Positions 53,137 through 57,937 of a DNA stretch of 64,000 nt are shown here, in pieces. Under the pieces are notes generated by a model. The model searched no databases. It worked only from the letters and a program-made list of their open reading frames with translations, and was not told the DNA's origin. The position numbers and the translations under genes are program-made. The stretch covers positions 1 through 64,000 of the forward strand of contig NZ_AUPM01000038.1 of the NCBI RefSeq assembly GCF_003265365.1, given 5' to 3'. Each line of letters starts with the position of its first letter. Positions within the stretch are counted from its first letter, which is position 1. Source of the DNA: Petrotoga sp. 9PW.55.5.1. GTDB taxonomy: Bacteria; Thermotogota; Thermotogae; Petrotogales; Petrotogaceae.

Positions 53137-53523
53137 ATGGTAAATGTAGCTTTGATAGCTCACGACAAAAAGAAGCTAGATTTAGCAATGTTCGCCAAAG
53201 AATGGAAAGATGTATTCAAAAATTGCAAATTATATGCCACAAATACCACTGGAAAAATCTTAAAAGAGAAAGTGGGATTAGAAATACAAACCTTTGAATC
53301 TGGACCGTTAGGAGGAGATTTGCAAATCGGTGCTTTGGCAGTATCCGGTAGAATTGATTTTGTTATTTTCCTTAGAGACCCCTTAACTGCTCAACCACAC
53401 GAACCTGATGTATCTGCTGTTCTGAGAATATGTGATGTACATAATATACCTTTAGCAACTAATTTAGCAACTGCTGAAGCCATAGTCTTAGAGATTCAAA
53501 AAAAGCTTAACAATCAAAAGTGA
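53137..53523 (+). CDS. mgsA: methylglyoxal synthase
   Basis: The 128-residue protein matches MgsA. It has [12 protein letters not shown] at the N-terminus, [22 protein letters not shown] with the catalytic Asp, [20 protein letters not shown]-type sequence, and [16 protein letters not shown]. It converts dihydroxyacetone phosphate to methylglyoxal and phosphate, relieving phosphate limitation in glycolysis. GGGAGAG precedes the ATG. It ends 7 bases from the convergent SecB-like gene. Confidence 0.95.
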   Translation: [128 protein letters not shown]

Positions 53524-53530
53524 AATTTTT

Positions 53531-53959
53531 CTAAAAAGATTGATTTTCTATATTAATAGGTAATATTATTTGCGGAAGTCTGGATTTCATAAGAACTTCA
53601 TTTAAATATATTCTAAGATAGGGCCAAAGAATTTTATCTGCATAGTTTTCTAGATAGAATTTTTTGGCCCTAGAATTTTTTAACAATGATTCAAAATTTA
53701 TATCAGTTTCAAAAATTTCTCTAAAAGTTATAGTGTAATATGCTACCCTAGTATTTTCTCTTTCCAGAAAGATTCTATAAGTTACTATTAAATTTAATTC
53801 TTTTTGAACTTGCTCATAAACATATCCTCTTTCTATAGAAATTTCATCAATTTTTTCCAATTGCTTTTTACTTGTTCTTTCAAAAAATTCACTCTCTAAA
53901 AAGATATTTTTAATTTTTAATTCTCTAAGAAGCTTTATCTTGTTGTTTTTTTCTTTCAC
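53531..53959 (-). CDS. SecB-like chaperone (atypical, paired with XRE gene)
   Basis: The 142-residue protein resembles SecB in length and in its C-terminal half. NYADKILWPYLRIYLNEVL (residues 105-123) and SRLPQIILPINIE (126-138) parallel the SecB segments CPNILFPYARECI and GTFPQLNLAPVNF. The N-terminal FLESEFFERTS and the central beta strands (NLIVTYRIFLERENTRVAYY) fit the same fold. It lies 36 bases after an XRE regulator gene on the same strand. Classical SecB is largely proteobacterial; SecB-like proteins elsewhere often belong to toxin-antitoxin-chaperone modules. The fold call is from my own alignment by eye. Confidence 0.68.
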   Translation of the reverse strand: MKEKNNKIKLLRELKIKNIFLESEFFERTSKKQLEKIDEISIERGYVYEQVQKELNLIVTYRIFLERENTRVAYYTITFREIFETDINFESLLKNSRAKKFYLENYADKILWPYLRIYLNEVLMKSRLPQIILPINIENQSF

Positions 53960-53995
53960 AAAAAATCTACTCCTTATTTTATATTTATTATCAAA

Positions 53996-54322
53996 TTATT
54001 CCTCTAATTTTAGGTGAAAAATCTCTTCGAAATTATCTTCATTATTAAAATTTGAATCTTTTTTTATTTTTTCATCATTTACTACCTCCAAATATAATTT
54101 TATCTTACCACCCAAAACTTCTGCAAGTCTCTGTAAGAACATAAAAGTGGGGTTATAATTACCTTTTTCAAATTTGGAGATAATAGCTTGAGTTGTACCC
54201 ATCTTCTGTGCGAGACTTTTTTGGGTAATCCCTAATTGTAACCTTCTTTTCTTTATCTCGTACACGAAATCTAATAAAGAGCTCTTATCTATTTCTTCCC
54301 ATTTATTTTCTTTCTCATTCAA
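53996..54322 (-). CDS. XRE-family regulator, HigA-like antitoxin candidate
   Basis: The 108-residue protein has an HTH_3 domain (about residues 20-75) with LGITQKSLAQKMGTTQAIIS and KFEKGNYNPTFMFLQRLAEVL. The ending GGKIKLYLEV is typical of HigA antitoxins. Residues 80-108 form an acidic tail (NNEDNFEEIFHLKLEE), where chaperone-dependent HigA1 of Mycobacterium carries its chaperone-addiction sequence. The TTG at 54322 follows GAGGTGAGATAA; the nearby ATG is out of frame. No HigB-type toxin gene lies upstream, only 185 bases before a divergent transporter gene. Confidence 0.8.
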   Translation of the reverse strand: MNEKENKWEEIDKSSLLDFVYEIKKRRLQLGITQKSLAQKMGTTQAIISKFEKGNYNPTFMFLQRLAEVLGGKIKLYLEVVNDEKIKKDSNFNNEDNFEEIFHLKLEE

Positions 54323-54507
54323 TTATCTCACCTCTCAATAAAAATATTTTAAAAGATTTTAATTTTTATATTTTTACTCAATTGTAACTTTTTTATATTT
54401 TAAAAAGATTAAAAGTATGTTATAATAATTATTACCAAACTAATTATATCCAATTAAATTTCTATTCAAAATATTTATTTATGAAGAAACAGTAAAGGAG
54501 TGAGATT

Positions 54508-55164
54508 GTGGAGCTTTTTGAATATATTTCGACTAATTCAAGTATTATTTGGAAAGAATTCCTGAATCATTTAAAGATTATTGGATTATCATTACCTTTT
54601 TCTATTGGTATAGGAGTTCCTACAGGAATCTTTATTTCCCGCCATCCTAAAGCTGCAAATATAGTAATATACATTGCAAGCATTTTAATGACCATACCTA
54701 GTTTAGCGCTTTTTGGAATCATGGTTGTTGTTCTTTCTCCTTTTGGTGCTGGATTGGGGGTAACTCCTGCAGTTATCGCTTTAATAATTTATTCTCTACT
54801 ACCTATAATTAGAAACACATTAGTTGCTATTCAATCTCTTGATCCCGGAATGATTGAAGCCGCCAAAGGCATGGGCATGACAGAATCTCAGATTTTATTC
54901 AAAATCAGGTTACCATTATCTATAGCAACAATAATGTCCGGTGTAAGAAACGCTGTAGTCATGGGAGTAGGAGTAGCAACTTTAGGATACTTTGTTGCAT
55001 CTGGAGGATTAGGATATTTTATATTCGCAGGTTTAAGCCGATCAAGATATCCAATGGTTATTACTGGGGTAATTTTAGTTTCAATTTTAGGTATTTTAGC
55101 TAATTATTTACTTCTAAAATTCGAAGATTTAATAACTCCTAAAGGATTAAAAATAAAAGATTAA
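54508..55164 (+). CDS. glycine betaine/choline-type ABC permease (OpuCB/OpuCD-like), first
   Basis: The 218-residue permease has about five to six helices and the EAA-type loop IEAAKGMGMTESQILFKIRLPLS near residue 125. The N-terminal ISRHPKAANIVIYIASILMTIPSLALFG matches OpuBB/OpuCB. The start is GTG at 54508 after AAAGGAGTGAG. It is the first gene of a four-gene osmoprotectant importer (permease, ATPase, permease, binding protein). Confidence 0.9.
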   Translation: MELFEYISTNSSIIWKEFLNHLKIIGLSLPFSIGIGVPTGIFISRHPKAANIVIYIASILMTIPSLALFGIMVVVLSPFGAGLGVTPAVIALIIYSLLPIIRNTLVAIQSLDPGMIEAAKGMGMTESQILFKIRLPLSIATIMSGVRNAVVMGVGVATLGYFVASGGLGYFIFAGLSRSRYPMVITGVILVSILGILANYLLLKFEDLITPKGLKIKD

Positions 55165-55198
55165 AAACACTATAAAGAAATAGGAGGAACAATTTCAA

Positions 55199-56299
55199 AT
55201 GGCTATACAATTAATAGATCTAACCAAAAAATATGGAGATTTCACAGCAGTTAACAATTTAAATATTGAATTTGAAGATCATAAATTAACGATTCTAATA
55301 GGACCTTCTGGATGTGGAAAAACCACAACATTAAAGATGATAAATAGATTAATTGAAAGAACCTCAGGGGATATTAAATTCGATGGAACTTCAATAGATG
55401 ATATAAACCCAATTGAACTTAGAAGACGTATTGGTTATGTTATTCAAGAGATTGGATTATTCCCACATATGAATGTTTTTGACAATATAGCAGTTGTTCC
55501 GAGACTTTTAAAATGGACTGAAGATAAAATAAAAAAGAGGGTATATGAGTTAGTGGATTTAGTAAATTTGGAAGAATCTCAAACTTTAAAATATCCTGCT
55601 CAATTATCAGGTGGGCAACGGCAAAGAGTGGGTGTAGCAAGAGGTCTTGCAGCTGATCCAGATATTTTGTTAATGGATGAACCTTTTGGCGCTATCGATC
55701 CGATTAATAGAGAAACTTTACAAGATGCTTTTATAGAAATACAAGAAAAAATTAAAAAGACGATCATTTTTGTTACCCATGATATTAGAGAAGCATTAAA
55801 ACTAGGAGATAAAATTGCAATTTTTAATGAAGGAAAACTCGTTCAATATGATGAGACACAACAAGTTGTTCAAAATCCAAAAAATGATTTCGTGAAAGAT
55901 ATTTTAGGTGAGGATAGCCAATTTAAATCCTTGGAATTCATGAAAGTAAAGGAAAGTTTATTCAAAGACATTCAAATATTCAAATTGAACGAAGATTTTG
56001 AAAAAATTAAAAGCAAATCAAAAAATTATTATCCTATCACCATATTTGTCAATCAAAATAATAAATTTATAGGCTTCGTTGAAACCAAAAAATTAAAACG
56101 CATACCCGATTTTTCCAGACTTCAAAAAGCATTTAAAAAAGATTTTGTCACAGAAAATTCTAGCTTATATGAAGCTTTGAATAAGATATTAAGTTCTTCT
56201 AGTACAAATATACCAGTAATCACAGATAAGCAAGAGGTCTTAGGAGTAATAAACTTAAAAGCTATATTCGAACAGATACCAAACAGTGAAGAAGTTTGA
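55199..56299 (+). CDS. opuCA: glycine betaine/choline-type ABC ATPase with CBS domains (OpuCA-like)
   Basis: The 366-residue protein has Walker A GPSGCGKTT near residue 36, Q-loop, signature LSGGQRQR, Walker B ILLMDEPFGAI and VTHDIREALKLG. A C-terminal tandem CBS-like region follows from about residue 245. The CBS domains in OpuA/OpuC ATPases sense ionic strength or cyclic-di-AMP and gate uptake of compatible solutes. GGAGGAAC precedes the ATG. Confidence 0.93.
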   Translation: MAIQLIDLTKKYGDFTAVNNLNIEFEDHKLTILIGPSGCGKTTTLKMINRLIERTSGDIKFDGTSIDDINPIELRRRIGYVIQEIGLFPHMNVFDNIAVVPRLLKWTEDKIKKRVYELVDLVNLEESQTLKYPAQLSGGQRQRVGVARGLAADPDILLMDEPFGAIDPINRETLQDAFIEIQEKIKKTIIFVTHDIREALKLGDKIAIFNEGKLVQYDETQQVVQNPKNDFVKDILGEDSQFKSLEFMKVKESLFKDIQIFKLNEDFEKIKSKSKNYYPITIFVNQNNKFIGFVETKKLKRIPDFSRLQKAFKKDFVTENSSLYEALNKILSSSSTNIPVITDKQEVLGVINLKAIFEQIPNSEEV

Positions 56300-56312
56300 A
56301 AAGGAGGATAAT

Positions 56313-56963
56313 ATGGCTTTTTTTTCTTACGTAAGTCAGAATTTAGGATATATGGGAATAAAAGCTTTAGAACATTTATATTTATTCGCTATATCTTGGG
56401 CACTAGCTATTGTTGTTGGAATGTTAATAGGAATATACGTTACTCGCCCTGGTAGAGAAAGAGGAGGAAGAGTAGCTCTAATAATTACCGGTATGGCGCA
56501 AGCCGTACCAAGTATAGCTGTTATTGCTCTAGTTTTTATATTCATGGGAATAGGAGCTGCTCCAGCGATTTTCGCACTTTTTCTATATAGTATAGTCCCT
56601 ATCACATTTAATACTGCTTCCGGGCTTTTCGGAATCGATAAAGATATGATTGAAGCAGCGAAAGGTATGGGCATGACCAACAGAATGATTTTATGGAGAG
56701 TTGAAATACCTAACGCAATACCAACTATTTTTTCAGGTATTAGAAACGCAGCTATTATAAACCTGGGAACAGCTACTATAGCATCAGCAATTGGTGCAGG
56801 AGGTTTAGGAGAACTTATCTTTATCGGACTAGGTACGTTCAAATATGAAATGATATTAGCCGGTGCGATACCTGTTTCAATAATGGCTGTCTTAATTGAT
56901 CTCATTCTAGGAGTAGTTCAAAATAAAATGACATCGGAAGGTCTCAAATTACAAAGTGAATAA
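56313..56963 (+). CDS. glycine betaine/choline-type ABC permease, second (OpuCD-like)
   Basis: The 216-residue permease contains IEAAKGMGMTNRMILWRVEIPNAIPT, an EAA loop nearly identical in form to that of the first permease, and ASAIGAGGLGELIFIGLGTFK. I set the start at ATG 56313 after AAGGAGGATA; an upstream GTG would lie inside the ribosome site and in the end of the ATPase gene. It pairs with the first permease as a heterodimer. Confidence 0.9.
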   Translation: MAFFSYVSQNLGYMGIKALEHLYLFAISWALAIVVGMLIGIYVTRPGRERGGRVALIITGMAQAVPSIAVIALVFIFMGIGAAPAIFALFLYSIVPITFNTASGLFGIDKDMIEAAKGMGMTNRMILWRVEIPNAIPTIFSGIRNAAIINLGTATIASAIGAGGLGELIFIGLGTFKYEMILAGAIPVSIMAVLIDLILGVVQNKMTSEGLKLQSE

Positions 56964-57014
56964 AGATATATTGGTTTACTTTCTTTCCAAAATCTTTTAA
57001 TGGAGGTGTTAACA

Positions 57015-57899
57015 TTGAAAAAATTGGTATTACTTCTTTTAATAGGTGTTGTTTCATTAACTAGTGTGTTTGGAGCTACTTTAACCGTTGGTGCAAAAAA
57101 TTTCACTGAGCAATATGTTTTAGGTAATTTAGCATCATTACTTCTTGAAGAAAATGGTTTTCAAATTGTCGAAAGATTTGGACTAAGTTCTTTAGTTGCA
57201 AGACAAGCCTTGTTAACAGGACAAATTGATTTATACGCAGATTATACAGGTACAGCATGGGTTACTTATCTTGACCAAGAAGAATTGATAGCAGATCCCG
57301 ATGAATTACTTCAAAAAGTAAGAGAATTAGATGCAGAAAATGAAATAGTTTGGCTTGATAGGATCAACGCTAATAATACCTATGCATTAGCTATACGAAG
57401 AGAAGATCATGAAAAGTATGGATTTGAAAATTTATCTGATTTAGTTGCTTATTGGAATGAACATCCTAAAGAATTTGTTGTAGGAGTTGGTTATGAATTT
57501 TACGAAAGACCAGATGGATTCTTTGCTTTTGCAGAACATTACGGTTTAAATATTCCAAATTCTCAAGTATCAACTATGGATGACGGTTTGACTTATGAAG
57601 CTCTTGCAAACAAAAAAATAGACATAGCAATGGTCTTTGCCACCGATCCAAAGATTTTAAGATATAATTTATACGTTCTTGAAGACGACTTGAACTTCTG
57701 GCCATACTATCATATTTCTTATGCTGTAAGGGAAGATGTATTAAATAAATACCCGGAAATTGAAGAAATATTGAGACCACTTACTTTATATCTTAATCAA
57801 GATGTACTTATAAGGTTAAACTATAGAGTGGATATCGAAGGATTAGAACCTAAAATAGTTGCAAGAGATTATTTGGAAGGTTTAGGACTAATAGATTAA
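57015..57899 (+). CDS. glycine betaine/choline-type substrate-binding protein (OpuCC/ProX-like)
   Basis: The 294-residue protein has a signal peptide (MKKLVLLLLIGVVSLTSVFG) without a lipobox Cys, then TLTVGAKNFTEQYVLGNL, the standard OpuAC start. Other family segments are YADYTGTAWVTY and YYHISYAVREDV. Aromatic residues (for example Trp and Tyr in those motifs) would box the quaternary ammonium group. TTG at 57015 follows GGAGGTG; the apparent ATG at 57000 overlaps that site. A clear terminator follows. Confidence 0.9.
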   Translation: MKKLVLLLLIGVVSLTSVFGATLTVGAKNFTEQYVLGNLASLLLEENGFQIVERFGLSSLVARQALLTGQIDLYADYTGTAWVTYLDQEELIADPDELLQKVRELDAENEIVWLDRINANNTYALAIRREDHEKYGFENLSDLVAYWNEHPKEFVVGVGYEFYERPDGFFAFAEHYGLNIPNSQVSTMDDGLTYEALANKKIDIAMVFATDPKILRYNLYVLEDDLNFWPYYHISYAVREDVLNKYPEIEEILRPLTLYLNQDVLIRLNYRVDIEGLEPKIVARDYLEGLGLID

Positions 57900-57910
57900 G
57901 TTTAAAAATT

Positions 57911-57937
57911 AAAAAACCGGGACTATCCCGGTTTTTT
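57911..57937. terminator. bidirectional terminator between opu and met operons
   Basis: AAAAAACCGGGA (57911-57922) pairs exactly with TCCCGGTTTTTT (57926-57937) across a three-base loop. The symmetrical A and T runs let it stop both the opu transcript and the opposing met transcript. The last two bases overlap the metI stop codon. Confidence 0.9.

Follow-up and report, generated by a model that had tools for sequence, protein, structure and literature searches.

SecB-like chaperones outside Proteobacteria have so far been viewed mainly as guards of toxin-antitoxin systems. In HigBA1-SecB-TA of Mycobacterium tuberculosis (Rv1955-Rv1956-Rv1957), a toxin-antitoxin-chaperone (TAC) module, an XRE antitoxin with a C-terminal extension precedes the SecB-like protein Rv1957. 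In known TAC antitoxins, the chaperone-addiction element (ChAD) is a variable extension at the C-terminus, and that of the mycobacterial system binds via aromatic and basic residues (PMC5105189, PMC6377645); a C-terminal ChAD alone suffices to make unrelated proteins dependent on SecB-like chaperones (PMC5105189). In CmdTAC (PD-T4-9) of E. coli ECOR22, the SecB-like chaperone CmdC is titrated by the T4 capsid protein, and the C-terminus of CmdA is a ClpXP tag, LAA (PMC11618068). Loci with an antitoxin-type gene and a SecB-like gene but no toxin (AC loci) were mentioned in 2014 by Sala, Bordes and Genevaux, and hence the kind is already known; there they are no more than counted as part of surveys of TAC systems, the text names no Thermotogota, and what toxin-less or solitary SecB-like chaperones do is posed as an open question (PMC4257090).

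We analysed a window (the whole stretch of 64,000 nucleotides from Petrotoga sp. 9PW.55.5.1, Thermotogota) carrying an XRE gene and a SecB-like gene, together with the orthologous loci of five sister species. The pair falls within the definition of an AC locus and adds to the loci of those surveys vertical retention across the genus, selection, a tail that is conserved, and a form that is probably fused. No description of such a pair in Thermotogota, of genus-wide retention, or of an XRE-SecB fusion was found in the open-access literature, and both the retention across the genus and the likely fusion appear to be new. We give about an even chance to the reading that the pair is a domesticated antitoxin-chaperone pair, namely a toxin-free regulator of transcription that depends on a chaperone. 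The features of the locus are as follows.

53996..54322, minus strand: XRE (HTH_3) DNA-binding protein gene, 108 aa, TTG start, with an HTH_3 match
53999..54037, minus strand: XRE C-terminal tail, residues 96-108, DNFEEIFHLKLEE, a candidate ChAD-like motif after a variable acidic linker
53960..53995, minus strand: gap between the XRE and SecB-like genes, 36 bp, with a GGAG ribosome-binding-like sequence
53531..53959, minus strand: SecB-like chaperone gene, 142 aa, GTG start, recognised by PADLOC, hhalign and Foldseek of the AF2 model
53137..53523, plus strand: mgsA-like (methylglyoxal synthase) gene, convergent with the SecB-like gene
54323..54507, no strand: XRE/opuBB intergenic region, 185 bp, common to the divergent XRE-SecB unit and opuBB
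54399..54426, plus strand: promoter-like site for opuBB, TTTAAA-16-TATAAT with TG ahead of the second hexamer, within the conserved core
54508..57899, plus strand: opuB-type ABC transporter operon (choline/betaine family) encoding permease, ATPase, permease and binding protein, divergent from the pair

Both open reading frames and the 36-base gap between them lie where the first-pass annotation, made from the DNA letters alone, had placed them. On the minus strand the XRE gene is followed by the SecB-like gene, with the mgsA-like gene next downstream and the opuBB-like permease gene next upstream. In the sister species the XRE/SecB-like spacing is 53-68 bp and contains GGAGGAG in each, and the two genes are probably co-transcribed, as judged from this arrangement. 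The convergent SecB-like and mgsA-like stops are only 7 bp apart, leaving no space for a toxin gene downstream.

The assignment of the second protein as SecB-like, made in the first-pass annotation, was borne out by profile and structure comparisons, though not by the Pfam SecB model: PF02556 matched neither the 142-aa protein nor its sister proteins, and the NCBIfam SecB model gave a weak, partial match (E=1.2e-3). The PADLOC profiles of CmdC (PD-T4-9_C) did match it, PDLC04071 at E=2e-7 over residues 20-135 and PDLC04072 at E=2.4e-6, and PD-T4-9_C matched all six orthologues. Furthermore, hhalign of a profile of the six orthologues against a set of Thermotogota SecB-like proteins gave a probability of 90 (E=1.5e-6), and this set in turn matched E. 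coli SecB in the PDB at 3e-6. An AlphaFold2 model of the 142-aa protein (low confidence, pLDDT 51) was built from the single sequence without alignment or template, so that the fold evidence is independent of the profile evidence. When it was searched with Foldseek against 350,542 PDB chains, ranks 1-6 were all SecB (probability 0.97-1.00, E 4e-3 to 9e-3), beginning with E. coli SecB (PDB 1qyn) and M. tuberculosis Rv1957 in complex with the ChAD peptide of its antitoxin; SecB chains made up nearly all of the top 22 matches, none of which had an E-value below 1e-3. Taken together, these comparisons establish the protein as SecB-like with a predicted SecB fold (a beta-sheet and a long helix) at the level of the monomer. 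It thus resembles canonical SecB in predicted fold, but differs from it in lacking a PF02556 match and in being operonic with a regulator. A search of solved structures with the Petrotoga alignment alone gave only chance coiled-coil matches, the link to SecB having come via related SecB-like proteins and the fold search, and Pfam matches of the chaperone to Terminase, TetR_C_5 and ParE-like families (E 0.03-0.5) were judged to be due to chance.

CmdC as the closest profile in the defence library raises the question of an anti-phage sensor, in which a phage capsid protein would titrate the chaperone, as T4 capsid protein does with CmdC (PMC11618068), and loss of the XRE protein would release a transcriptional defence response. 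The likeness to CmdTAC ends with the chaperone, however: the Petrotoga locus has no CmdT-like ADP-ribosyltransferase and no CmdA-type antitoxin, and the XRE protein has neither a PD-T4-9 match in PADLOC nor an LAA-type ClpXP tag. The surroundings (mgsA, XRE, opuB) are syntenic and housekeeping in character rather than a defence island, and the neighbouring targets would be transporters. We accordingly give this explanation the slightest chance of those considered.

The XRE protein is a member of HTH_3 (Pfam, E=1.4e-14), with orthologues of 70-74% identity in syntenic positions in the five sister species and a TTG start kept in all six. It scored 15.6 bits against the NCBIfam HigA-family model, far below the cut-off of 47.7 bits, and hence the earlier description of it as a HigA-like antitoxin holds here only in the sense of HTH_3/XRE. 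The acidic C-terminal tail described with it was confirmed by counting from the sequence (net charge of about -5 for residues 82-108). In the comparison with mycobacterial HigBA-SecB, the antitoxin-chaperone order, the C-terminal extension of the XRE protein and the match to Rv1957 are shared. The Petrotoga locus differs in having no toxin, in an XRE protein that scores below the cut-off of the HigA model, and in a tail without evident similarity to the M. tuberculosis ChAD, ChADs being variable (PMC5105189). The analogy with HigA drawn in the first-pass annotation is accordingly a loose one, and the closest chaperone profile is that of CmdC.

The XRE and SecB-like genes were found adjacent, on the same strand and at the same genomic place in all six Petrotoga genomes examined, without internal stops in either gene. 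The pair is therefore genus-wide, beyond an oddity of one genome, and the linkage of the two genes in relatives, on which the first-pass interpretation depended, is seen in every species. Pairwise dN/dS values, calculated by a counts method with many dS values near saturation, were about 0.15-0.44 for the SecB-like gene and 0.05-0.32 for the XRE gene, as compared with 0.00-0.06 for mgsA and opuBB on either side. The pair is thus faster-evolving than its housekeeping neighbours yet clearly constrained, as the substitution patterns indicate purifying selection.

None of the six species was found to have a toxin ORF or toxin remnant at the locus, which extends to the orthologous loci the earlier observation that no toxin lies next to the pair. 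A tblastn search with 13 toxins against the six loci gave only short matches with E-values of at least 0.13, while a positive control recovered its targets, and the XRE-opuBB gap contains no open stretch of more than 55 aa. These results bear on the proposal that the pair is a recently decaying remnant of a HigBA-SecB operon after loss of the toxin. Full HigB-XRE-SecB operons do occur in the same family (L023, L036, L037), one of them with a chaperone of the same clade as that of Petrotoga (G006a). However, the intact ORFs in six species, dN/dS values well under 1 for both genes over a long divergence, the conserved promoter core described below and the missing toxin fragment all speak against decay. 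Since the genes are intact in six of six species and under purifying selection, the pair is not a decaying relic, and the remnant suggested in the first-pass annotation is in that sense disfavoured; we consider it highly improbable.

A related possibility is that a TAC module has been split in trans, with the pair neutralising a toxin that is encoded elsewhere in the genome or belongs to an unrecognised family. TAC toxins are diverse (PMC4257090, PMC11618068), and the window's own genome carries two Gp49/HigB genes. Each of these adjoins its own antitoxin gene (HigA), however, and Gp49/HigB is absent from the five sister species, all of which keep the pair; PF05015 and PF05016 had no matches in any of the six Petrotoga genomes. 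A trans-encoded HigB was rejected on these grounds. The genome-wide search covered Gp49/HigB, PF05015 and PF05016, and within these families the toxin elsewhere that had been envisaged finds no support. A TAC split in trans is therefore, in our judgement, quite improbable. The two HigB-HigA pairs, on contigs 49 and 72 (L064:1426-2078 and L065:516-1168), are nearly identical, pointing to recent acquisition or duplication.

The region between the divergent XRE-SecB unit and opuBB contains a core of 89 columns conserved in the six species, in which the window shows 82-89% identity to each sister (41% expected from composition), and identity in the flanking intergenic columns is near chance. Consensus matches such as the opuBB promoter-like site were no commoner in the region than in shuffled sequences; hence it is conservation that singles out this site. 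As candidate XRE operators, 18-mer repeats were no better than in shuffles and the dyads were short and AT-rich, and no operator is claimed. In one sister genome (G016, L020:6060-6530) the gap between XRE and opuBB exceeds that of the other sisters by about 220 bp and contains a G+C-rich insert resembling a small mobile or repeat element.

In two genomes of another genus, g3 (L085, L086), mgsA is directly followed by a metI-like permease gene, without the pair and without opuB, whereas in Petrotoga this junction is filled by the SecB-like gene, the XRE gene and the four-gene opuB operon; opuB is missing from both of these g3 genomes, and not from the junction alone. The corresponding block of the window (53524-57935), which is absent at the same g3 junction, was likely gained together or moved there. 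In genera that carry opuB elsewhere, the XRE-SecB pair does not stand beside it, so that control of opuB is suggested by the divergent arrangement only.

The C-terminal part of the XRE protein showed an uneven pattern of conservation. In residues 96-106, DNFxxIFHLKL, 9 of 11 positions are invariant in the six species, as compared with 3 of 17 in the linker (residues 79-95; Fisher p=0.0015), and synonymous changes are present inside the DNFxxIFHLKL codons of the Petrotoga orthologues. This resembles the conservation of a short binding motif, and the tail is a candidate chaperone-addiction motif. In a low-confidence structure model of the XRE protein (pLDDT about 50), the tail forms a strand beside another strand, and its conservation could therefore be structural instead. 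The Petrotoga XRE proteins end in HLKL or HLKLEE, and several TAC antitoxins of Thermotogota end in -AA (LTAA, GSAA, SEAA, GFAA). The HLKL or HLKLEE end would be compatible with a loss of addiction-style turnover.

SecB-like genes were described in the first-pass annotation as unusual in this kind of organism, and indeed PF02556 matched at E<=0.01 in only 9 of 103 Thermotogota genomes, to which the six Petrotoga genomes are added by their own profile. Most Thermotogota SecB-like genes are the third gene of operons of a HigB/ParE-like gene, an HTH gene and the SecB-like gene, i.e. full TAC modules. The HigB-XRE-SecB operons among them (L023, L025, L036, L037, L058, L060-L063) share with the Petrotoga pair the phylum and the order of XRE and SecB-like genes, but they start with a HigB/ParE-like ORF, and most of their chaperones belong to a separate clade. 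In a tree of the SecB-like proteins (unrooted, with long branches), two clades were separated with a support of 100/100. The first consists of TAC chaperones whose genes each follow a toxin-sized ORF and a gene for an HTH protein. The second, with a WPYLR-type helix at the end, is mostly toxin-less and contains the Petrotoga proteins, the chaperone of a full TAC from another genus of the same family (G006a), that of an MqsA-SecB pair (G004), a solitary protein of a Kosmotogales MAG (G021/L066), and the C-terminal part of a 258-aa protein (G018).

Other arrangements were observed among these relatives. In G004 (L028:4243-5381), the gene for an MqsA-like antitoxin overlaps the SecB-like gene, no MqsR gene adjoins, and an uncharacterised 202-aa ORF lies 359 bp upstream; this is possibly a second toxin-less AC pair with another antitoxin family. 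TAC-like loci of G050 and G051 (L057:685-1923, L059:503-1828) carry an excisionase/MerR-type HTH_17 antitoxin (E=1.1e-8) between a ParE-like toxin (2.7e-11) and the SecB-like protein, the TAC antitoxin families reported so far being HigA, MqsA and HicB. In G028 and G033 (L025:6152-9640, L026:4761-8510), a stretch of under 4 kb contains two different HigB-XRE-SecB-like operons, in opposite order in the two genomes, suggesting that TAC modules have been rearranged or duplicated. Collections of phages, plasmids and viruses contained no relatives, and in a search of a genome collection, which may omit records near the window's genome, the only relative was the Kosmotogales MAG.

The 258-aa protein of G018 (genus g7, same family) is the closest XRE protein outside Petrotoga (E=8e-13), and no toxin is encoded beside its gene. 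Its C-terminal domain scored 13.1 bits against the clade profile, a score reached by none of 3000 shuffles (best, 7.7). In a profile comparison with 114 aligned columns it took a place among true SecB-like proteins, with all the non-SecB proteins of the 264 compared ranking lower. The domain shares 30% identity with G006a over about 115 residues and grouped with the Petrotoga-containing clade in the tree (89/90, long branch). Hhalign with the Petrotoga profile alone was negative, the domain being recognised only with the broader clade profile, and its matches in other genomes were at chance level, leaving it a singleton. For these two reasons, the negative Petrotoga-profile comparison and the lack of a second copy, we regard the protein as a probable, rather than certain, natural XRE-SecB fusion.

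These relatives also bear on the possibility that the two genes are independent neighbours, the XRE protein being an ordinary regulator, e.g. of opuB, while the SecB-like protein acts on its own as a general or export chaperone. Thermotogota covered by a toga export outer-sheath proteins, and the Kosmotogales MAG (L024/L066) has a SecB-like gene of the same clade without an adjoining HTH gene. However, SecB-like genes are missing from most Thermotogota, which argues against a general need in export, and the adjacency on the same strand in six of six genomes, the probable fusion in another genus and the conserved XRE tail argue for a functional link. Independence of the two genes is therefore unlikely in our view.

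Among the remnant, the toxin elsewhere and the regulator under chaperone control that the first-pass annotation had offered, the last fits these sequence comparisons best. The reading as a chaperone-dependent regulator is based on the intact syntenic pair in six of six species, purifying selection, the SecB fold, the conserved tail, the lack of a toxin at the locus and of a HigB/ParE-family toxin common to the genus, and the conserved promoter core, as well as on the empty site in g3, the probable G018 fusion, and the precedent of ChAD transfer (PMC5105189). Against it stand the lack of an operator above AT-rich chance, a tail that may be structural, the occurrence of opuB elsewhere without the pair, and a fusion that is a singleton with a statistical domain assignment. 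Under this reading, an XRE dimer would bind the conserved intergenic core and repress the transcript of its own two genes, and perhaps the divergent opuB operon for osmolyte transport as well. DNFxxIFHLKL would serve as the chaperone-addiction element, which a tetramer of the SecB-like protein would have to hold for the XRE protein to fold or escape proteolysis. Unfolded clients arising under heat, osmotic or export stress would titrate the chaperone, as could a phage protein, the XRE protein would be lost and the promoters would open, so that the output would be changed transcription and not growth arrest.

More tentatively, and with rather less confidence than doubt, we propose a toxin-free class of regulators in which a DNA-binding XRE protein owes its stability to a dedicated SecB-like chaperone, the two being paired in Petrotoga and fused in g7, and in which chaperone availability is read as transcription. 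If this is true, the class would be a regulatory counterpart of, or an evolutionary alternative to, TAC modules, in a separate and mostly toxin-less clade of SecB-like proteins. The Petrotoga pair and the probable fusion in a neighbouring genus offer a clean system for asking whether chaperone addiction serves gene regulation alone, and the pair would show one route by which addiction modules are domesticated.
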